Below, piece by piece: positions 3,142 through 23,009 of a stretch of 64,000 nucleotides of DNA. The stretch is from assembly GCF_000265385.1 (NCBI RefSeq), contig NC_018013.1, positions 208,501 through 272,500 on the forward strand, given 5' to 3'. The notes beneath the pieces are model-generated. The model searched no databases and was not told where the DNA came from. It was given only the letters and a program-made list of their open reading frames with translations. Origin of the DNA: Aequorivita sublithincola DSM 14238. GTDB taxonomy: Bacteria > Bacteroidota > Bacteroidia > Flavobacteriales > Flavobacteriaceae. Both the position numbers and the translations under genes were made by a program. Numbering within the stretch: position 1 is the first letter of the stretch; the number at the start of each line of letters is the position of its first letter.

Positions 3142-4683
3142 TTATAACGGAATATTGCCGTGTTTTCGGTTTGGTCGCGGAACGTCTTTGGTTTCTAGCA
3201 TCGCGAAAGCTTTCAAAAGTTTTCTACGAGTTTCTCTTGGTTGAATTACCTCATCAATAAATCCGCGTTGAGCTGCTTTAAAAGGATTAGCAAATGTTTC
3301 GGCATATTCAGCTTCTTTTTCTGAGAGTTTTAACTCAGGGTTTTCGGCTGCAGCAATTTCTTTTCTAAAAATAATCTCACTCGCTCCCTTTGCTCCCATC
3401 ACAGCGATTTCAGCCGTTGGCCAAGCGTAGTTCATATCTGCGCCTATGTGTTTACTGTTCATTACGTCATACGCTCCACCATAAGCCTTTCGTGTAATTA
3501 CGGTAACTCTTGGAACGGTCGCTTCGCTTAATGCGTAAAGTAATTTGGCCCCGTTCAGAATAATTCCGTTCCATTCTTGGTCGGTTCCCGGAAGAAATCC
3601 TGGAACATCAACCAAAACTAAAAGCGGGATATTGAAGCAATCGCAAAAACGTGTGAATCGTGCTCCTTTTTTGGAACTGTCTACATCCAAAACTCCCGCT
3701 AAACTCATCGGCTGGTTTGCAACTATCCCGATGCTTCTTCCGCCAAGTCTCGCAAAACCTACTATAATATTTTCTGCGTAATCTTTATGAACTTCAAAAA
3801 AGGAATCTTCATCTATTGTTCCTTTTATTACATCGTGCATATCATAAGGCTTGTTGGCAGAATCTGGTACAATGGTTTCCAATTCATCACGAAATTCATC
3901 AGCAGCTTTAAACGGTAGTTTTTCAGTAAGGGTTTTATTATTCTGCGGAAGATAACTGAGCAAAGTTTTTATTTGTTCTAAGCACACAATATCATTCGCA
4001 GCTGTAAAGTGTGTTACGCCACTTTTTGTAGCGTGAGTTCTAGCGCCACCAAGTTCTTCTGAAGTTACATTTTCATTGGTAACGGTTTTTACAACGTTTG
4101 GACCAGTAACAAACATATAACTACTATCCTGCACCATTAATGTGAAATCTGTCATTGCTGGAGAATAAACCGCTCCGCCTGCACACGGCCCCATAATAGC
4201 TGAAATCTGCGGAATTACGCCTGAAGCTTGCACGTTTCTATAAAAAATATCTGCATAACCACCTAAAGACCGAACGCCTTCCTGAATACGTGCGCCACCT
4301 GAGTCATTTAAGCCAATAACCGGTGCGCCAACGCTCACGGCGTGATCCATTATTTTACATATTTTCTCAGCGTGAGTTTCTGAAAGCGCGCCTCCAAAAA
4401 CCGTAAAATCTTGGGCAAAAATATAAACTAAACGTCCGTTTATTGTGCCATAACCGGTAACCACGCCATCGCCGTAGTAGATTTCTTTTTGCATATCAAA
4501 ATCTGTGGTTCGATGGGTTACAAGAATGCCCATTTCTTCAAAAGAACCTTCGTCTAAAAGATATTCTACGCGCTCACGAGCGGTTAGTTTTTTCTTTTCG
4601 TGCTGTTTTGAAATCCGTTTTTCGCCGCCGCCTTTTTTGGCTTCTTGAATTATTTCTTGCAATTTTTTATTATTGTCAGTCAT
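3142..4683 (-). CDS. pccB: Acyl-CoA carboxylase, carboxyltransferase (beta) subunit
   Basis: A 513-residue carboxyltransferase that moves CO2 from carboxybiotin to an acyl-CoA, most likely propionyl-CoA. It has the two crotonase-like halves of the biotin-dependent carboxyltransferase family, with the GGARIQEG and [12 protein letters not shown] oxyanion segments in the first half and the [10 protein letters not shown] and GGAYDVM segments in the second. The ATG at 4681-4683 (MTDNNKK) matches the usual family N-terminus; the longer frame adds eight residues. It is the third gene of an operon after the biotin carrier and biotin carboxylase. Substrate (propionyl-, methylcrotonyl- or acetyl-CoA) is inferred from family resemblance only. 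Confidence 0.9.
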
Positions 4684-4697
4684 AGAGTTAATTATTT

Positions 4698-4785
4698 CTC
4701 TGCGCAACTCTGTGTTTTTCTCCGTGTAACTCTGCGTAATAGCTATTTCACGGAGTTACACAAAGAACCGCAGAGGTTCACAGAG
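4698..4785. repeat. Imperfect palindromic intergenic repeat (CTCTGTG type)
   Basis: Two arms of about 43 bases, beginning CTCTGCGCAACTC and ending GGTTCACAGAG, are reverse complements with several mismatches and meet at AATAGCTATT. Segments such as CTCTGTG and CGGAGTTACAC are typical of a dispersed Bacteroidota repeat; a relative lies at 25219-25262. It separates the carboxylase beta gene from the biotin carboxylase gene and contains the last codons and stop of the latter. Confidence 0.7.
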
Positions 4786-6226
4786 TTTTTGGTAATCGAA
4801 GTTTTTCTGAATCTTTTAAATATTGTTGTAATGCGAAAAGTGCTGCTATTTTTGCTTCTTCTTCATTGATTGCTTTTAACTTTTCTTCGGAATAGTATTT
4901 CTTTACAAAGTTAGTGTCGAAATTTCCACTTCTAAAAGCTTCATGCTCAAAGACAAATTTTCCAAACGGAAGTGTTGTGCTAACACCTTCAACTTTATAT
5001 TCTGAAATGGCTTCCAGCATTGTTTGCATCGCTTCATTCCGCGTTTTTCCGTAGGTTATCAATTTGGAAAGCATTGGATCATACTGAATTGGAACTTGCA
5101 TTCCTTCCGTAAACCCATCGTCCACACGAATATTTTTTCCGCTCGGCGGACGATAAACTTCCAGTTTTCCAACGCTCGGCATAAAATTGTTTAGCGAATC
5201 TTCTGCGTAAACGCGAAGCTCAAAAGCGTGTCCTGTTATTTTTAAATCTTCCTGTAAAAAGGAAAGTTTTTCGTTATTGGCAACGTTTATTTGCTGTTCT
5301 ACCAAGTCGAGTCCTGTGATAAGTTCTGTAACGGGATGTTCCACTTGTAAGCGCGTATTCATTTCTAGAAAATAGAAATTGAGTTTATCATCTAAAAGAA
5401 ATTCCACAGTTCCTGCTCCTACATAATCACAAGCTTTTGCAACTTTTACAGCTGCTTCGCCCATTTCTTTGCGCAATTCTGGCGTCAAAACTGAAGATGG
5501 TGCTTCTTCAACCACTTTTTGGTGGCGACGCTGAATGCTGCATTCTCGCTCAAAAAGATAAACCGTGTTTCCAAAGTTATCAGCTAAAACCTGAATTTCG
5601 ATATGTCTAGGCGAAGTCACAAACTTTTCAATAAAAACCGAGCCATCACCAAAAGCATTTTCGGCTTCGCTGATGGCGCGTTTCATTTGGTCTTCAAATT
5701 CTTCTGAATTTTCAACAATTCGCATTCCTTTTCCGCCGCCACCTGCTGATGCTTTTATGAGGATTGGAAAACCTATATCTTTTGCAATTTCTTTTGCTGC
5801 GTTAACATCTTTGATGGCTTCAGCAGTTCCAGGAACCATTGGAATATTGTATTTTTTCACCGCATCTTTCGCTGCGAGTTTGCTTCCCATTATACGAATA
5901 GCGTGCGACCTAGGACCGATGAAAATCATTCCACTTTTTTCAACGTGTTCGCCAAATTCAGCGTTTTCACTTAAGAATCCGTAACCTGGATGAATTGCAT
6001 CTACATTTAATTCCTGTGCAACTTTTATAATATTATCTCCTAAAAGATAGGATTCGTTGGAAGGTGGTGGACCAATACAAACTGCTTCATCTGCAAACTT
6101 TACGTGTGGTGCATTTCTATCTGCTTCGGAATAAACGGCAACCGTTTTAATGCCCATATTTCGGGCGGTTTTCATTATTCGCAAAGCTATTTCGCCTCTA
6201 TTGGCGACTAATATTTTCTTAATCAT
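4778..6226 (-). CDS. Acyl-CoA/acetyl-CoA carboxylase, biotin carboxylase subunit
   Basis: A 482-residue ATP-grasp enzyme that carboxylates the biotin of its carrier protein using bicarbonate and ATP. Visible features are the N-terminal KKILVANRGEIALR, the glycine-rich ATP loop KASAGGGGKGMR, the EMNTRLQVEHPVTE active-site segment and a C-terminal biotin-carboxylase domain. The ATG at 6224-6226 is chosen because the protein then begins MIKKILVANRG, the family standard; it overlaps the upstream carrier gene by 8 bases, showing coupled translation. The final codons (T-L-stop) come from a palindromic repeat, so the tail may be a recent addition. Confidence 0.93.
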   Translation of the reverse strand: MIKKILVANRGEIALRIMKTARNMGIKTVAVYSEADRNAPHVKFADEAVCIGPPPSNESYLLGDNIIKVAQELNVDAIHPGYGFLSENAEFGEHVEKSGMIFIGPRSHAIRIMGSKLAAKDAVKKYNIPMVPGTAEAIKDVNAAKEIAKDIGFPILIKASAGGGGKGMRIVENSEEFEDQMKRAISEAENAFGDGSVFIEKFVTSPRHIEIQVLADNFGNTVYLFERECSIQRRHQKVVEEAPSSVLTPELRKEMGEAAVKVAKACDYVGAGTVEFLLDDKLNFYFLEMNTRLQVEHPVTELITGLDLVEQQINVANNEKLSFLQEDLKITGHAFELRVYAEDSLNNFMPSVGKLEVYRPPSGKNIRVDDGFTEGMQVPIQYDPMLSKLITYGKTRNEAMQTMLEAISEYKVEGVSTTLPFGKFVFEHEAFRSGNFDTNFVKKYYSEEKLKAINEEEAKIAALFALQQYLKDSEKLRLPKTL

Positions 6227-6710
6227 TTTTCTGAAATTCAATTAGCAACTTACCCTTATCAACCGTTTCGCCTTTTGCGATTTTTACAGATTTTATAATT
6301 CCGTCGCGCGGCGCGGTTAAGGTGTTTTCCATTTTCATCGCTTCCAAAACACAGAGGAAATCACCTTTTTTAATGTTGTCTCCTACTGAAACATTTACTT
6401 CTAAAATCAATCCGGGCATAGGGGCGTTAATTTCATCTTCAACTGAAGCATTGCCCAATGAAAGACCCATTTTGGAAATAAGCGCGTCAAGTTCATTTTC
6501 TATTTTAACTTGATAGCGATTTCCATTGATTGATAATGTATAGTTTCTTTTAGTGAAATTAGCTTCAATGGTTTCAACCTCAACCGATTTGTTATTGTAG
6601 ATTATGTTGGATTTTATGTCGTCGGAAATGACGTCTAGTGTTTCCAAATCTTTCGAGTTCAATGAAAATTCAAAATTATCATTGACAATCGCTTTATATT
6701 TTTCTTCCAT
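6219..6710 (-). CDS. Biotin carboxyl carrier protein of the acyl-CoA carboxylase
   Basis: A 163-residue carrier. The C-terminal biotinyl domain (about residues 92-163) has the EAMKMEN motif with Lys126 as the biotin site, and a conserved proline/glycine turn (NAPMPGLI) before it. Residues 1-90 are a less conserved extension, presumably for docking to the carboxylase partners. It is the first gene of the operon, overlapping the biotin carboxylase start by 8 bases. In many propionyl-CoA carboxylases the carrier and carboxylase are fused; here they are separate. Confidence 0.92.
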   Translation of the reverse strand: MEEKYKAIVNDNFEFSLNSKDLETLDVISDDIKSNIIYNNKSVEVETIEANFTKRNYTLSINGNRYQVKIENELDALISKMGLSLGNASVEDEINAPMPGLILEVNVSVGDNIKKGDFLCVLEAMKMENTLTAPRDGIIKSVKIAKGETVDKGKLLIEFQKND

Positions 6711-6911: not shown

Positions 6912-9900
6912 TTATTTTTTTGTGTTTGGTTTTGGTTTTGGTTTCGAGTCTGGTTTTGGTTTTGATTGCGATTTCTTTCCTTTAGCTATCGGGATCGATT
7001 TCGTCTCGATAGCTTTGGGGATCGCTTCAGTTTTGACTTCAACGATTGTCTTAGACTTTAGCTTTTTTCTTACTCCGCTCAACGCAGCTCTTAATTCGTT
7101 TATTCGGGTTTCTAAATCTTTTTGCGATTTATAACCTTCGCCTTTTAAACCTGCGACTGCATTGAGAGATTGGGTTAAGAATTCTAGATGTTCTAATTCT
7201 GCAGCTTTTTTCGCTTCGGAACCTGCTTTTCGCCAAATATTCTTAAAGTTTTTAGTTACCTCGTCCCATTTTGATTCAATTTTTTCATCTTCAACAACTA
7301 AGAGAAGACATAAATCAATATTTAAAGAAGCAATCAAATCCCAATAGTCAAGATCATCTATATTAGATCTTTCTTCTAATTTATTTTCTAAATCAATAAG
7401 CGTTTGCTTAGCCTCGGAAAAGGATCTTAGTTTGTATTTCTCCTTCTCAATAATAAACTCACCTCCATCTTTTATTGCTTCATTAAATACTAATAAGCAA
7501 CCAAGTTCAATTGAATTCACTAACGAATATGTTTTGTTAGAATTAAATTCGTTACCATAAGCTCGCTCGTAATGAGAGATTGCAGCTTTATAAGCATTCA
7601 CTCGTTTTTTAGAATCTGAAGCCAACATAGCTAGGCGTTTGTAGACGCTTCCCAAAAGATTATGACGTTCACCTGTTTCTCCAGCAAAGAGCAATACCGT
7701 AAGATCACTAATTACGCGTTCAATTTTTTGATATGCCTCTTTTTTTGACTCTGAGGAAGTATTTTCACTTTCAAAAATTTCCCTGATATAAAGTTTTGAA
7801 CGTGTGTTGCAGTATTTTTCCATACAAGAAAAGGAAAATTCTGCATTTTCTTTTCTTAGTAGCTCTTCATAGTTTCCGTTAGCTTCAATATACATTGCTA
7901 GTTCCTGATAGATTTTAGCCACTCTTTCTATAATCTGCGGAGTTCTGAAAACATCTCTATCTACGGCTGTCAATATGGTGTTCAATTCTGTTAAATGATC
8001 ATTATCTGTGCCAGTTGCCATCTGTAATTGGTTGAGCAAATTATCTAAATGAATCTCAGCCTCTTGCGGAACAATATAGCTTGGCGACCAAGAACCTGAT
8101 CCAACAGAGATACCTTTCAGCTTAAAGAAAGGGTCTCCATAACATTGATAGGCACCCCAAGTATTGTTTCCTGGGTGTTTTTCATAAATGTAATTACGTG
8201 CATTTTTAACGGCATCCCCAAAATTATATCCGGCAAACATGCTACTGTAAAAAACCTGTGCAAAATCCAACGCTGCGGCATCATTAACAGCCCAACCAGC
8301 CGCGATTACGACTTTTACACCTATACTTATCAATTCAGTACCTATGTTAGCGGCCAGTTTATAGCGATCTTGATAAAATCTTTCGTCTTCCGAATTAGTA
8401 TAACCAAGGTGACAGCAGTTTACGAAAACGAGTTCTGGAACTACTGGCATCTGTTTAATTTCGAATACAGTAAGGAATATTTCTTTTCCGATAACCATTC
8501 CTGATTTATTAGGGAATTTGGAATTGTAAACCCCGTGACCTGCCATATGGATTATTGAATAATCATTACAGAAAAAATTCTTGACAATGCTTTCGGCGCC
8601 AGTTCCTATAAGATGTGTGGTAGGATAACCCACGTTTTCCAGAGTATCTTTAACCATCATTCCTTCCTCTCTTGCGCCTGGCAATTGAGAAATGAAACCG
8701 TCTAATATTGGGTCGGCAATAATCAAGGCTCCTTTATCAGCTACACGTTTTATATTGATTCTGTAATCCTTCGTGGACAGTTGTCTAATCATTCCTGCGT
8801 TAATACACAATGGTTTCGCATTGGTTGTATTATCTTGAAGCAATTCCCAAGGATAGGAAGCAGTTTTGGTATCGAGAATCCAGGAAATGTTTCCTTTTCG
8901 TTTAAGTTTTTCTTTTAAGTTATTTGGAATTAATAATTCGAACAGTGTTTTTGCAGTACAGGCAGACCATTGATTACTGCTAGAAACTTCAGAAATAAAT
9001 AGGTCTATTAATGGAGTACTGCTGTAAAGTTGGTTCTCTTCTTCTCTAGAATCCCCAGTTGAAGAACCGAAAACCATACTGGAAGGCTCCCCTGTTTGCT
9101 CGTTGGCTTCTTTATACTTAATTGTTATCCTGTTCCACCAATCCTCTGCATTGTCCAAAGGAGTTCTCTTTTGAATTCCCAATAAGTTTTTGATTCGTTT
9201 GTTACCAATAATAATATTGTATGTTGAATTTTCTTTATTAGCAATTTTGTTGAGGACATACATACAATTTAAAGCTCTGTTTGCATAACGCTCCACGATT
9301 TCTATGTGTTGAACGGTTTTGTAACCATCGTCCGACAGCAATTTTATCTTTTCATTTGCTCGGTTCACGCCATCAATAATTGCTTTTAGGGAACCTTCAA
9401 CCGAAAGACCGCCATAGCCTGTCGCGATGATAAGGGAAGAAATTCCAATGCCTTTTTTAGGAACGTCAGCGCCACGAATAATTAGTAAATAATTCAAGAC
9501 TCCTTGTTCAATAGATTCTGAAAGCTGAAAGGACGTGAGTTGATCTGGTTCTCCGAGACCTACTATAATCGCGCCTTCATAGTCGCTATTATTCAATTTA
9601 CGAAATATGGCGTTTGTACCGATTTCACCAGGATAGAGCCCTAATCTATGTTTTGAAGTTAGGCTTCCTTCCATATAATTATCTATGGACTTTTCGGCAT
9701 AAAGCACACCATCATTCAAAAAGTGACCCGCAACAACAGGATAATCTGCATATCGTAAATCGCCATTGCTAACAGTAACTGTAACAGGAATTTCGCTACC
9801 AACTGGTTCTATCTCACCACCAAGACCTAAAATTGTTTTTTCCAATCCGCTTTCTGAAAGATCAAAATCAATATCTGGTTCGGCACGGAATATTTTTTCT

Positions 9901-12458
9901 TCACCTCGTAATAACGGTTTTGTATTTCGGAGCAAATTGGTTTGGCCTGTGGAAAGTATTTCCTCTATGGCATTAAACAAATCTGGTTCATTGGCGAGCG
10001 CACCGTGGGTTACACGTGAATAATAGACTGCATTAGCTTCAACAAGCTGTTTTGGAATTCCGGAGGCCCAGGTTACACTTTGATCTCCTTCACTTGTATA
10101 AAGGAAATACAGTTGTTTTTTCGGTGGAATTTCATCAAGATAGTAACCACAAGGAGTCATTTTATCTTTTCCAGCGATATAAACCATGCTTGAATAATCT
10201 ATGTCATCTCTTTTGTTTAGGATGTTATCGCGGTAATTTTTAAAATAATCAAGATCAGATTGAAGCGGTAGTGGCCAATCAGATTGTCCGAAATATTTAC
10301 GCATATTTTCCCAGGTTTCCATTTTTGCGAAATCGTTTTTCGGATCGGTTGTTAAAGGTAACAAAGCTAATATTCCCGGGAATTGAGAGAACATTTTAAG
10401 CAGCCCTTTTTTAGTATTAAAAAGATCTAATTTGCTTAACTTTTGAATTATAGCATCCTCTCCAAACAATACAGAAGGAATTCTAAACGAACCTCCAAGT
10501 GGCGATCCAAGAAAGAGCATTCTAAAGCCTTTTGAAGCTTTTAAGTCTTGCCAAGTATCGTCGTGATTAAGAATAAAATCACGCGCCAAAAGTCCGCCCA
10601 TTGAATGCCCAATAATCTTTATTGGTTGTCCAATTTTCAGTAAACTTTTAATTTTTATATTGAATTCACTGGCGCATTCTGGAAGTGGTTTTCGCCAATC
10701 GAAAGGAAATACTACTACATCATATTTGCCCGACAACCATTTATAAAGTTTATAATATGAAGTTTTTACAACGGAATCTGCAACAATTTTATTCACGTTA
10801 GAATACCCAAGTTTTATCAATCCACCAGTAAGAACTCGACCATAATGAAGCCATATCTCCTTGTCATTTTGTGTTAGGTTGGAACCCATAATTCCTGGGA
10901 GCAACACCACCATAGGCTTTCTGCCTGATGGTGGATCTGAGGAAGGATACAATTCACCAGATTCTACAAGAGCTCTATCGCTTCCGGGAATTTGATCTTG
11001 TGCAAAACTTTTAAAACCTGGAATAATTTGTCCTTCAGCAGTTTTAAGTACTAATTCTATCGCTTCTCGTGTCTTATCATTTTCAAAGTACTTAACGTGA
11101 TTTACATCGACTCCTTGGTCAAAGAAATATTGAATGTTGTCTTTACGTTTTACGCCTAAATACATAGAATCTGTATTCACAACTAAATCATTACGTTGCA
11201 TATAGAACAGTTTTCCAAGAATCACAAAAAGACCTTGTTTAGAAAAACTCAATTTTCCATTCCCCGAAATTATTGCCAAAGCTTGCCCGTTAATAGCGGT
11301 TGCTGGTGATGGATCATTCAATATTTTTATAAAGGGCGATTCGGGTCGTTGAGCTTCTACACCCGGAAGCACGTTTACGTCATCTTTACTTTCAACGGCT
11401 GCGGAAAGTAATTCTTTCAAAATATCTCCAAATGGACCTCCAACTATAGTTACCAAGTTAAAAAATACATTTAGTATATGATCCAATCTTTTTGAAGCCA
11501 GCTTTGTTCCTGCGGCGGGACAGCCAACTCGAATAAACTTAGCGACTGTTATTTTTTTGTCCCTAAAAATTTTGTTGAGTGCCTCTATATTTTTAATATC
11601 TTCTTCCCTATCGTCTTCCTTTTCCAGCAATGCAAGGTGGTTGCTTGTAAACCCTAGAGAAGATTCATCATTATCACTGCTATATTTATTCAAAATATCT
11701 CCAACAATTCCACCTCTAGAATGGGTAAGCAAATGCACCACGGAATTATTAGGAAGCATTTGGGCGAGTTTCACAACATTCAGCAATGGGCTCTCTGTAA
11801 GGGTTCTATGCTGAAAAGCAATTACGTTTTTACCATAAACCTCATGTAATGTATTCCAGACAGGAGTATTTTTCAAATCTTGAAACGCCCCAAAAGTGTC
11901 TGAGTTTGTTCCATGAATAAATAGAAAAAACGGACTGTTGGATGGTTTTCCATCAAAAGTTCCGAATTTAAAATCTTTATCAACAGTGAATAAACCTGCA
12001 CCGATTTTTAAAAAGTTTGTTGGGATAATAGAACTGTCTATTTCATTCTGCAAATGCTTGTCTTCAAGTTTTTCTGAGAGCTCTGCCACTCCTTTCCCTA
12101 TGGCCTTTTTTGCGAATACTTTTAAAAGTTTAAGGGCTATTTTACCGATAAGACCTCTTTCTGTTGAAGGTGCTTCCACAGAACTGGGCAGTACAAAAAT
12201 ATCGGGCTGCATATCGCGACTTCCAGGAGGTTTTAGAGCCGGATCAAGCTCAGGAAAAACTTCATGCATTGTGGACGCATCGCACATCCAAGTAGTGCCA
12301 TCAACAAGAACTAGGTGCAACAACTTATCATTTCCCTCTAGTTCGATTTCGTGCTGATTGGAAACATCTCTATTACTAGACTGTAAATCATAGACAATCG
12401 CTCCATCTTCATCGATTTCCTTACTACCATAAACTACAAGTTTTTTGATTGGTTCCAT
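6912..12458 (-). CDS. Giant protein: two alpha/beta-hydrolase modules, CHAT caspase-like protease domain, helical C-terminus
   Basis: A 1848-residue cytoplasmic protein without signal peptide. Residues about 170-460 form a first hydrolase module (HGTNS near 182, nucleophile-elbow-like THSRGG near 245). Residues about 510-850 form a second, LCAT-like module (LLPGIMGSN near 518, GHSMGG with Ser near 618). Residues about 880-1200 are a linker domain I cannot name (contains VVAGHFLNDG and LYPGEIGT). Residues about 1200-1440 are a CHAT domain with HMAGHG (His1304/1308) and VNCCHLG (Cys1349 in the catalytic position) ending in CYGDPFF. Residues about 1480-1790 are helical and TPR-like, followed by a Lys/Pro/Ser-rich tail. 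CHAT domains are caspase-like cysteine proteases or scaffolds, often in defence or cell-death systems; here substrate and trigger are unknown. It stands alone, with no partner gene close by. Confidence 0.8.
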   Translation of the reverse strand: MEPIKKLVVYGSKEIDEDGAIVYDLQSSNRDVSNQHEIELEGNDKLLHLVLVDGTTWMCDASTMHEVFPELDPALKPPGSRDMQPDIFVLPSSVEAPSTERGLIGKIALKLLKVFAKKAIGKGVAELSEKLEDKHLQNEIDSSIIPTNFLKIGAGLFTVDKDFKFGTFDGKPSNSPFFLFIHGTNSDTFGAFQDLKNTPVWNTLHEVYGKNVIAFQHRTLTESPLLNVVKLAQMLPNNSVVHLLTHSRGGIVGDILNKYSSDNDESSLGFTSNHLALLEKEDDREEDIKNIEALNKIFRDKKITVAKFIRVGCPAAGTKLASKRLDHILNVFFNLVTIVGGPFGDILKELLSAAVESKDDVNVLPGVEAQRPESPFIKILNDPSPATAINGQALAIISGNGKLSFSKQGLFVILGKLFYMQRNDLVVNTDSMYLGVKRKDNIQYFFDQGVDVNHVKYFENDKTREAIELVLKTAEGQIIPGFKSFAQDQIPGSDRALVESGELYPSSDPPSGRKPMVVLLPGIMGSNLTQNDKEIWLHYGRVLTGGLIKLGYSNVNKIVADSVVKTSYYKLYKWLSGKYDVVVFPFDWRKPLPECASEFNIKIKSLLKIGQPIKIIGHSMGGLLARDFILNHDDTWQDLKASKGFRMLFLGSPLGGSFRIPSVLFGEDAIIQKLSKLDLFNTKKGLLKMFSQFPGILALLPLTTDPKNDFAKMETWENMRKYFGQSDWPLPLQSDLDYFKNYRDNILNKRDDIDYSSMVYIAGKDKMTPCGYYLDEIPPKKQLYFLYTSEGDQSVTWASGIPKQLVEANAVYYSRVTHGALANEPDLFNAIEEILSTGQTNLLRNTKPLLRGEEKIFRAEPDIDFDLSESGLEKTILGLGGEIEPVGSEIPVTVTVSNGDLRYADYPVVAGHFLNDGVLYAEKSIDNYMEGSLTSKHRLGLYPGEIGTNAIFRKLNNSDYEGAIIVGLGEPDQLTSFQLSESIEQGVLNYLLIIRGADVPKKGIGISSLIIATGYGGLSVEGSLKAIIDGVNRANEKIKLLSDDGYKTVQHIEIVERYANRALNCMYVLNKIANKENSTYNIIIGNKRIKNLLGIQKRTPLDNAEDWWNRITIKYKEANEQTGEPSSMVFGSSTGDSREEENQLYSSTPLIDLFISEVSSSNQWSACTAKTLFELLIPNNLKEKLKRKGNISWILDTKTASYPWELLQDNTTNAKPLCINAGMIRQLSTKDYRINIKRVADKGALIIADPILDGFISQLPGAREEGMMVKDTLENVGYPTTHLIGTGAESIVKNFFCNDYSIIHMAGHGVYNSKFPNKSGMVIGKEIFLTVFEIKQMPVVPELVFVNCCHLGYTNSEDERFYQDRYKLAANIGTELISIGVKVVIAAGWAVNDAAALDFAQVFYSSMFAGYNFGDAVKNARNYIYEKHPGNNTWGAYQCYGDPFFKLKGISVGSGSWSPSYIVPQEAEIHLDNLLNQLQMATGTDNDHLTELNTILTAVDRDVFRTPQIIERVAKIYQELAMYIEANGNYEELLRKENAEFSFSCMEKYCNTRSKLYIREIFESENTSSESKKEAYQKIERVISDLTVLLFAGETGERHNLLGSVYKRLAMLASDSKKRVNAYKAAISHYERAYGNEFNSNKTYSLVNSIELGCLLVFNEAIKDGGEFIIEKEKYKLRSFSEAKQTLIDLENKLEERSNIDDLDYWDLIASLNIDLCLLLVVEDEKIESKWDEVTKNFKNIWRKAGSEAKKAAELEHLEFLTQSLNAVAGLKGEGYKSQKDLETRINELRAALSGVRKKLKSKTIVEVKTEAIPKAIETKSIPIAKGKKSQSKPKPDSKPKPKPNTKK
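6983..7003. repeat. Copy of a dispersed palindromic repeat inside the CHAT gene tail
   Basis: Twenty of 21 bases equal the intergenic stretch 25306-25326 (core TAGCTATCGG, then ATCGATTTCG; the one difference is G at 6993 for A at 25316). Here it encodes the Lys/Ile/Pro-rich C-terminal tail of the giant hydrolase-CHAT protein, suggesting that an intergenic repeat has been captured into coding sequence. Confidence 0.6.
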
Positions 12459-21362: not shown

Positions 21363-23009
21363 TTACTGAACCACCACTTTTATGGTTTGGGTGGAAATAC
21401 CGTTGTCTATTTTCAACAAATAGATTCCGCTGGAAAGATTTTGATTCCAAGAAATTTCTCCTTGTGGTGTGTTCCAAGTTTGCTGCATCAGTTTCTGTCC
21501 AGTTATACTGAAAACTGAAGTGGTTACTTGAGTGTTTAAAGAATTCTTCGGAATTGCTATAACAATGTTGCTAGAAACTGGATTTTGTGAAAGAACAAAT
21601 TGATTGTTTAACTGATTTTCTGAAATTCCTATGGTTCCATTTCGTATTTCATCTAAAGCAAACTGAGCGCTTGCAGCAGTTACAGTTACGTGATCTTCGT
21701 TAGTATTTTGAATAAAAACATTTACAAAAGGTGAATTGGCCAAGTTGGGCGTAGCATACCAATCTGGATTGTCTATCGCCAAAGAACTCATTGTAGGAAT
21801 AAAGGAATACAGATCCTGTTGCAGGGCATTGATAAAATCTATTAAAACTTGGTTGCCGCCACCATCGCCAAGAGCATCGCTGATGCTTCCAGTTCCACCA
21901 GGAGAACTATCTAAACCTGCACTAGTACTAGGCGACTGTGAAGTAGTAGCATAAGTGTTTACAGGAATACCTGCAAAGAAAACCGTTAGGTCTGTAACGG
22001 TGTTGGTCTGGTTTGTTGGCGGAGTGAACTTGAGCGCAACATCTATATTTGTTAAAGCATCTATAGTAAGATTGGTGTCTACCACTGTGGCGCCGGGGCT
22101 TCCTGTAGTTGTTCCGTTGCCGCTACCGTTTATCATTGTTACGTTTCTCACACTACTTGGGAAACCTAGAGCTTCTAACTCTGCCTGAAATTCATTTCTA
22201 AAACCAGGAGCACCCAAAGGCAAAACTTTAGTTGGATCTTGCTCAAAGTCAGAGCCAGCCAAAAGATGACCTTTTAAATGATCCAGCAGCATTTCCTTCG
22301 CCGCAGGAGAATTCAAAAGTTGATCCACAACTTGTTGCGCAGTTGCGTCGCCTACTTGAATTGCGAAATAATTTATTAAATACTGAAGACTGATAGGAAT
22401 ATTCGCCCCGCGATGTGGTGAATCAAACGAAATATAAAGACGTGTTTCGGCATCTAGACTATTGGCTTCCATATATGCCAACCCATAACGAGCAATCAAG
22501 CCACCCATACTTGGACCGAGAACTACTAGTTCTTCATTACCTACTTTGTCTGCGTTTAATTTTTGAATCATTGCAATCAAAACCATCGCGTTCCGCTGAA
22601 TGTAGTCTGCGCCGCCATCTATGTCTTTTCCGCCTGTGTTATATACTGGTGCGTTTAGGATTACAATATCAAAACCTTCATTACGAAGAATGTCTGCCAT
22701 GTTTTGTCCGTCAAAACTTAGGCTGGCGTAGAGACCGTTGATGTCTCTAGCATCTCCTGGATCAAAACCGTCTAGGATTATTATGGGTTTGTCTAAAACT
22801 CCATCCAGATTGTCTAAAAATATTTCATATTCACCTTGACCAAAATAGGCTTGCGTTTCTTCATAACCTTGATAGGGAATGGTTGCGGTAATTGTTTCAA
22901 CGGCTTTGCTCTCCGGATATATTGCGTTTTCAGGAATATTTTGAAAACGTATTTGGGCGAAGGTGAATTGGGTGGTGAGGATTAAAAGGAGAATGTAAAA
23001 CTTTTTCAT
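21363..23009 (-). CDS. Secreted alpha/beta hydrolase with T9SS sorting domain
   Basis: A 548-residue secreted enzyme. It has a signal peptide (residues 1-18, MKKFYILLLILTTQFTFA), a PGAP1/lipase-like alpha/beta-hydrolase core with the nucleophile elbow GPSMGG (about residues 167-172) in VVLGPSMGGLIARYG, and the IILDGFDPGD loop near residue 80. The last about 75 residues form a Por-type C-terminal domain ending LSSGIYLLKIDNG, then TIKVVVQ, which directs export by the type IX system. It probably hydrolyses esters or lipids outside the cell; the catalytic Asp and His are not assigned. It is co-oriented with the 2H phosphoesterase gene that follows 10 bases downstream. Confidence 0.85.
   Translation of the reverse strand: MKKFYILLLILTTQFTFAQIRFQNIPENAIYPESKAVETITATIPYQGYEETQAYFGQGEYEIFLDNLDGVLDKPIIILDGFDPGDARDINGLYASLSFDGQNMADILRNEGFDIVILNAPVYNTGGKDIDGGADYIQRNAMVLIAMIQKLNADKVGNEELVVLGPSMGGLIARYGLAYMEANSLDAETRLYISFDSPHRGANIPISLQYLINYFAIQVGDATAQQVVDQLLNSPAAKEMLLDHLKGHLLAGSDFEQDPTKVLPLGAPGFRNEFQAELEALGFPSSVRNVTMINGSGNGTTTGSPGATVVDTNLTIDALTNIDVALKFTPPTNQTNTVTDLTVFFAGIPVNTYATTSQSPSTSAGLDSSPGGTGSISDALGDGGGNQVLIDFINALQQDLYSFIPTMSSLAIDNPDWYATPNLANSPFVNVFIQNTNEDHVTVTAASAQFALDEIRNGTIGISENQLNNQFVLSQNPVSSNIVIAIPKNSLNTQVTTSVFSITGQKLMQQTWNTPQGEISWNQNLSSGIYLLKIDNGISTQTIKVVVQ

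Follow-up and report, generated by a model that had tools for sequence, protein, structure and literature searches.

A CHAT protease fused to two predicted lipase modules in Aequorivita sublithincola, a candidate signal-gated effector of a bacterial conflict system

In a 64,000-nucleotide stretch of the Aequorivita sublithincola DSM 14238 genome (NC_018013.1, positions 208,501 to 272,500; the window in the following) we analysed a gene for a giant protein, which joins a caspase-like CHAT protease to two predicted lipase modules, a macro-like fold and a TPR-S scaffold. We consider the chances evenly balanced that this protein works as a signal-gated effector of cell death, all in one chain, within a conflict system that is probably directed against phages. 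What we observed in its favour is the domain content, the invariant active-site residues, the fold matches, the patchy distribution, purifying selection and, in a minority of relatives, an association with TIR genes. TIR-linked conflict effectors of the caspase clan are already known; unusual here is that protease and predicted phospholipase are united in a single chain. No description of the protein was found in searches of open-access papers.

The gene is one unbroken open reading frame (ORF), and the profile searches of its segments, which the sequence-only reading had proposed, gave four Pfam matches above the curated cut-offs: DUF7379 (97.9 bits, cut-off 33), CHAT (PF12770; 81.1 bits, cut-off 24), TPR-S (PF20308; 42.9 bits, cut-off 27.6) and LCAT (PF02450; 40.0 bits, cut-off 21). 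Of 7987 proteins scored in a homology search, 1136 matched at E ≤ 0.001. Among the best 120 of these all four domains were present in 115, and at least one was missing from P0038, P0039, P0076, P0114 and P0120; the named sources range from Aequorivita to Chitinophagaceae. Because 115 of the 120 listed homologues share the four domains, we concluded that the fusion of 1848 residues, as it had been described from the sequence alone, is a conserved design and no oddity of this genome, and a chance fusion or assembly artefact was rejected on the same grounds.

Table 1. Modules of the protein and flanking genes, in window coordinates.
Feature	Position	Strand	Basis
Whole coding sequence, 1848 aa	6912..12458	-	ORF and homologues of same architecture
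N-terminal beta-rich region, residues 1-168	11955..12458	-	predicted model m77fc5eb32095; no Pfam match
Hydrolase 1 (DUF7379, alpha/beta-hydrolase), residues 169-500; Ser247, Asp424, His454	10959..11954	-	
Hydrolase 2 (LCAT/lysosomal PLA2-like), residues 504-845; Ser619, Asp792, His818	9924..10949	-	
Linker, residues 846-888, partly low confidence; candidate processing site	9795..9923	-	predicted local distance difference test (pLDDT) <50 at 858-864, 882-888
Macro/M17-N-like fold, residues 889-1081; conserved glycine loop Y-G-G 1015-1017	9216..9794	-	
CHAT caspase-like protease, residues 1100-1451; His1308, Cys1349	8106..9161	-	
TPR-S scaffold, residues 1463-1766, ASK1 central-regulatory-region-like	7161..8072	-	
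C-terminal tail, residues 1767-1848, Lys/Pro-rich end, poorly conserved	6915..7160	-	
Co-directional flanking genes: biotin carrier, biotin carboxylase, carboxyltransferase (by eye); neighbours, outside the system	3142..6710	-	

Both alpha/beta-hydrolase signatures noticed earlier were found again, as THSRGG at 245-250 (Ser247) and GHSMGG at 617-622 (Ser619), together with PGIMGSN at 521-527; the positions had been given a few residues off (PGIMGSN near 518, the serine as 618). The CHAT histidines His1304 and His1308 and Cys1349, earlier called intact, are all present. In an alignment of 119 sequences over 1600 aa (the window protein and its closest listed homologues) H182, S247, D424, H454, S619, D792, H818, H1304, H1308, C1348 and C1349 were identical in 119/119. 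The glycine loop of the macro/M17-N module was conserved in the same alignment and may bind a ligand. A wider alignment comprised 68 sequences from named genomes with 37-100% identity, the window protein included. In this set the residues of hydrolase 1 and CHAT were invariant (H1308 and C1349 in 68/68), while S619 and H818 were altered in three sequences of a single Chitinophaga clade (L106, L108, L111), in which Gly replaces Ser619 and Tyr replaces His818 and the hydrolase 1 and CHAT residues are intact. Degenerate enzymes were therefore rejected as an explanation, hydrolase 2 of this clade excepted. Asp430 was dismissed as the acid of hydrolase 1 since it varies in the wider set and Asp424 does not. 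From the aligned residues Cys1349, rather than Cys1348, is likely the CHAT nucleophile, because P0192, a homologue lacking LCAT, has Ser at the first of the two positions.

The CHAT module, which has the caspase-like His/Cys pair in addition to its profile match, matched the separase/Craspase/SAVED-CHAT fold, and hydrolase 2 combines the LCAT profile with a Ser-Asp-His triad as in the LCAT and lysosomal phospholipase A2 (LPLA2) family. Residues 889-1081 matched a macro/M17-N fold, with both fold and profile support for Macro / Peptidase_M17_N, and residues 1463-1766 matched the central regulatory region of ASK1. Besides the linker in Table 1, the predicted model has low confidence at residues 493-497.

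The gene was present in 14 of 28 Aequorivita genomes, A. sublithincola counted and three of the 28 being <90% complete. The ratio of nonsynonymous to synonymous substitutions (dN/dS) was 0.05-0.07 against seven other copies and lowest in hydrolase 2 and CHAT (0.03-0.04); ten comparisons were tried, three were saturated, and dS exceeded 1 in the remaining seven. From this distribution and the low dN/dS we concluded that carrying the gene is optional and that its sequence is constrained. A gene-calling artefact was excluded by the open frame, the conserved full-length homologues and the same dN/dS values. Two carriers have copies with internal stops, and a third has its copy in two pieces on separate contigs, one of them with a stop (L019/L020 of G016, L014 of G025, L018 of G020), which suggests occasional gene loss or assembly error.

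The neighbourhoods of distant relatives, a survey likewise proposed earlier, were examined in 76 loci, the best of 410 confirmed candidates. For the 63 that lie beyond the Aequorivita group the neighbouring genes were tabulated, and 20 neighbouring proteins, chosen as apparently operonic or otherwise interesting, underwent a Pfam scan. A universal partner gene was ruled out, as the most widespread neighbour family outside Aequorivita occurred in 9/63 loci and was not consistently close. TIR and other conflict genes lie near a minority, and the TIR partners vary in kind. At L069 (Kriegella) the partner is a CHASE2-TIR gene, and at L092 (Chryseobacterium) an LRR-Roc-TIR gene lies 26 bp downstream. 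The Flammeovirgaceae locus L085 has nSTAND1 on its upstream side and a TIR gene downstream, and in Chitinophaga (L088) a TIR gene followed by a ParA-like ATPase stands upstream; the same ATPase occurs at L122. A TIR neighbour was also found in a Sphingobacteriales genome (L131), at L127 (Algoriphagus) a PCTIR-type gene begins 32 bp downstream, and a purpose-built profile revealed TIR genes at L073, L104, L102 and L066 and, before the ATPase, at L122. In Muriicola (L072) a caspase gene lies 13 bp downstream. The surroundings are richer still at two of these loci: L069:5092-9712 (Kriegella aquimaris) holds three TIR-type ORFs upstream of the relative and resembles a defence island, and L085:89-12453 has an operon-like series of a TIR_2-bearing ORF, an nSTAND1 NTPase, the giant effector and a TIR gene, with more TIR-type ORFs nearby.

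For the association with TIR we searched 58 genomes of the 63 non-Aequorivita loci with the TIR_2 profile, which gave 163 matches in 309 Mb. A match lay ≤3 kb from the gene in 9/58 genomes (L066, L069, L073, L085, L088, L092, L102, L122, L131) when 0.19 were expected (P ~1e-13), and ≤1 kb in 4/58 when 0.07 were expected (P ~7e-7); in the 51 genomes with ≤5 matches, five were near the gene and 0.10 were expected (P 5e-8), all P values being rough since genome sizes were rounded and TIR genes cluster. L104 (purpose-built profile) and L127 (PCTIR-type), outside the 58-genome search, also have a TIR close by. In total a TIR was nearby in 11/63 loci, for which nine changes were needed on a 71-row tree, where L104 and L131, which carry the same gene, stand as near-sisters. 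In a control with isochorismatase (31 genomes, 50 matches) none was seen by eye within 3 kb, a comparison of little power because of the low expectation; one coordinate lay ~3.4 kb off in the L089 genome, though it may be on another contig.

As regards mechanism, our inference covers the signal and its binding, the cleavage, the lipid substrates, the cell death and the role in defence, and runs as follows. A TIR-type NADase activated by infection would make an ADP-ribose-type signal; its gene would adjoin the effector in some relatives and lie elsewhere in the genome in Aequorivita. The signal would be received by the macro/M17-N domain and/or the TPR-S scaffold and would unlock the CHAT protease, which could then cut the flexible linkers (near 493-497 and 858-888) and/or host proteins. 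Cleavage would free or activate the two lipase modules, and these would break membrane lipids, leading to membrane damage and cell suicide. Activation of a proenzyme by a protease has a precedent, as described in PMC12799240, and the account in PMC13174449 has DUF4062 TIR-like NADases acting in phage defence. If correct, TIR/NAD signalling would be tied to the destruction of membrane lipids via a protease within one chain, DUF7379 and the macro/M17-N domain would gain a testable role in conflict systems, and a bacterial conflict-type protein would join the relatives of the ASK1 regulatory scaffold.

Several observations weigh against this proposal. No TIR_2 match lay ≤3 kb from the gene in 49/58 genomes, the 3 kb limit was set after the loci had been seen, and the TIR genes of L066 and L102 stand on the opposite strand, 2.3-2.7 kb off. 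Within the same flanks TIR was found in 8/226 cases within two genes and in 7/506 at least four genes off, which is not decisive (P 0.086), and part of the signal may thus come from shared defence islands. In the window no TIR_2 match was found; those of A. sublithincola lie at 1.71, 2.90 and 2.97 Mb and the gene at 0.22 Mb. A correlation within the genus speaks for the proposal, as all 14 Aequorivita carriers had a TIR_2 match, compared with 3/14 non-carriers (Fisher 3.4e-5), but it is backed by only two independent contrasts and not decisive. The stable place of the Aequorivita gene beside acyl-CoA-carboxylase-like genes is unusual for a mobile defence gene, and the sole match from PADLOC was a weak one to BovA, lying in the CHAT region (E 6.8e-5). 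A macro fold by itself does not reveal ligand binding, and the role of M17-N domains may be purely structural.

A wider generalisation, which we put forward as possible though somewhat doubtful, is a new class of TIR-signal-dependent immune effectors in which one chain would combine an ADP-ribose-type receiver (macro/M17-N and ASK1-like TPR-S), CHAT and two phospholipases released by the protease. Such a class would be a pore-free bacterial counterpart of pyroptosis, and its cousins would carry another sensor (SLOG) or do without one lipase or both. Variants of these kinds were found among the relatives: P0141 and P0177, each on a contig megabases long, have neither hydrolase, P0192 and P0259 lack LCAT, and P0268 keeps DUF7379 and CHAT and has a SLOG domain at its N-terminus (LD_cluster2, 38.7 bits, cut-off 25.3; STALD below cut-off) and no TPR-S match. 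These variants are natural experiments on the role of each module. P0234 and P0196 were dropped as examples of domain loss, since their gene models, which begin at the LCAT module or within it, may be truncated.

The alternative that survives best, though we consider it unlikely, is a conflict effector without gating by an NAD-derived signal, in which TPR-S, as in TPR-CHAT/Craspase, would sense a protein (e.g. one from a phage, or a partner that has oligomerised), whereupon CHAT would free the lipases. The self-regulated membrane-damaging effector of the sequence-only reading comes close to this alternative; that reading we found partly supported, and we kept the effector itself, with a TIR-type signal now proposed for its gating. 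Against protein sensing and in favour of the main proposal stand TIR near the gene far above expectation, the SLOG-bearing homologue and the occurrence of TPR-S in a caspase protein of the same genome whose gene adjoins a TIR gene. The last of these is a protein of 744 aa (L137:8038-10272) with Peptidase_C14, an esterase-like hydrolase and TPR-S, the only other TPR-S protein found in the genome, with a TIR_2 gene (L137:6838-7749) 0.3 kb downstream. It resembles the effector in having protease, hydrolase and TPR-S in one chain with a TIR_2 gene adjoining, but it has Peptidase_C14 instead of CHAT, a DUF676-type hydrolase instead of DUF7379/LCAT, the order protease-hydrolase-TPR-S and no macro-like domain found by Pfam. 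Since the protease and hydrolase families differ, this combination seems to have been assembled twice, once beside a TIR gene. In Muriicola (L072) a protein like it is encoded two genes from the effector. TPR-S was reportedly proposed by Burroughs and Aravind in 2020 to sense NAD-derived signals. Kaur et al. 2020 and 2021 were set aside as source of TPR-S, as the term is in neither main text.

We hold it to be quite improbable that the protein does housekeeping work alongside the neighbouring acyl-CoA carboxylase, as a lipid enzyme or a membrane-remodelling factor whose CHAT part is a maturation protease. In all 14 carriers of the genus, biotin-carrier/carboxylase/carboxyltransferase-type genes (names by eye) follow immediately after the gene and in its orientation, a like neighbourhood occurs in Cochleicola and, with an NTPase gene between, in Ulvibacter (by eye), and purifying selection is strong. 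On the other hand the gene is missing from 14 of the 28 genomes of the genus, and in 12/12 non-carriers with a fetched locus (12 of 14; the other two yielded none) a sugar-dehydrogenase gene directly adjoins the carboxylase genes. A lipase needs neither sensor nor protease modules. Homologues always in housekeeping operons had been named as a finding that would speak against an effector; no neighbour family is constant in other genera. Least probable of all, in our estimate, is a stress-triggered programmed-death switch with ASK1-like logic (redox, envelope or peptidoglycan damage) and not specifically anti-phage, to which the ASK1 match and the peptidoglycan-binding, M15 or CHAP genes adjoining several relatives would fit, but the likeness to ASK1 is confined to the scaffold and the TIR, PCTIR and nSTAND neighbours point towards defence against invaders.

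Among the known systems close to the proposed effector is type IV Thoeris, in which, as described in PMC12847820, TIR makes N7-cADPR that activates a caspase-like protease. By that description a caspase-clan protease is common to both, TIR-linked in a minority of relatives here, and an NAD-derived signal and cell death are presumed; the differences are CHAT in place of a classical caspase domain, its fusion to two hydrolases and a macro-like fold, and the lack of a TIR gene in an operon with the protease in the window. In the MoxR-vWA VMAP conflict systems caspase domains always occur with a neighbouring alpha/beta-hydrolase gene according to the account in PMC7159879; the same domains co-occur here, but in one polypeptide instead of separate genes. 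The macro effectors of type II Thoeris bind ADP-ribose as described in PMC11204291, and by this description the TM-macro effector ThsA likewise has a macro fold in a TIR-linked effector, whereas here the match is to an M17-N-type fold and no transmembrane part was noted. From Craspase TPR-CHAT (Csx29, type III-E CRISPR) the protein differs in its C-terminal, ASK1-like TPR part and the fused lipases. A CRISPR link was ruled out, in agreement with the earlier remark that none is near, by the lack of CRISPR-like repeats in window positions 1-30000, and no Cas7-11-like gene was seen by eye in 1-31 kb. A gasdermin gene was not recognised by eye in 1-31 kb, no profile search for it having been made in the window or the relatives. 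Lysosomal phospholipase A2 and LCAT, whose activity hydrolase 2 may share, differ from the multidomain protein studied here, in which no signal peptide is evident by eye.

The caspase-hydrolase-TPR-S protein (744 aa) stands on one strand with a TPR protein (655 aa) and the TIR protein (303 aa) at L137:6838-12441 (G000:C1, ~2.90 Mb); this set is probably a TIR-linked system and by appearance a separate conflict operon. Two further CHAT proteins of ~1100 aa each are encoded 6.6 kb apart at ~1.79 Mb (L002 and L003, G000:C1). In the window itself, positions 21363-23009 on the minus strand encode a protein of 548 aa that is probably another lipase or esterase; judged by eye, its start resembles a signal peptide, its C-terminus resembles a sorting signal, and it carries the alpha/beta-hydrolase motif GPSMGG.
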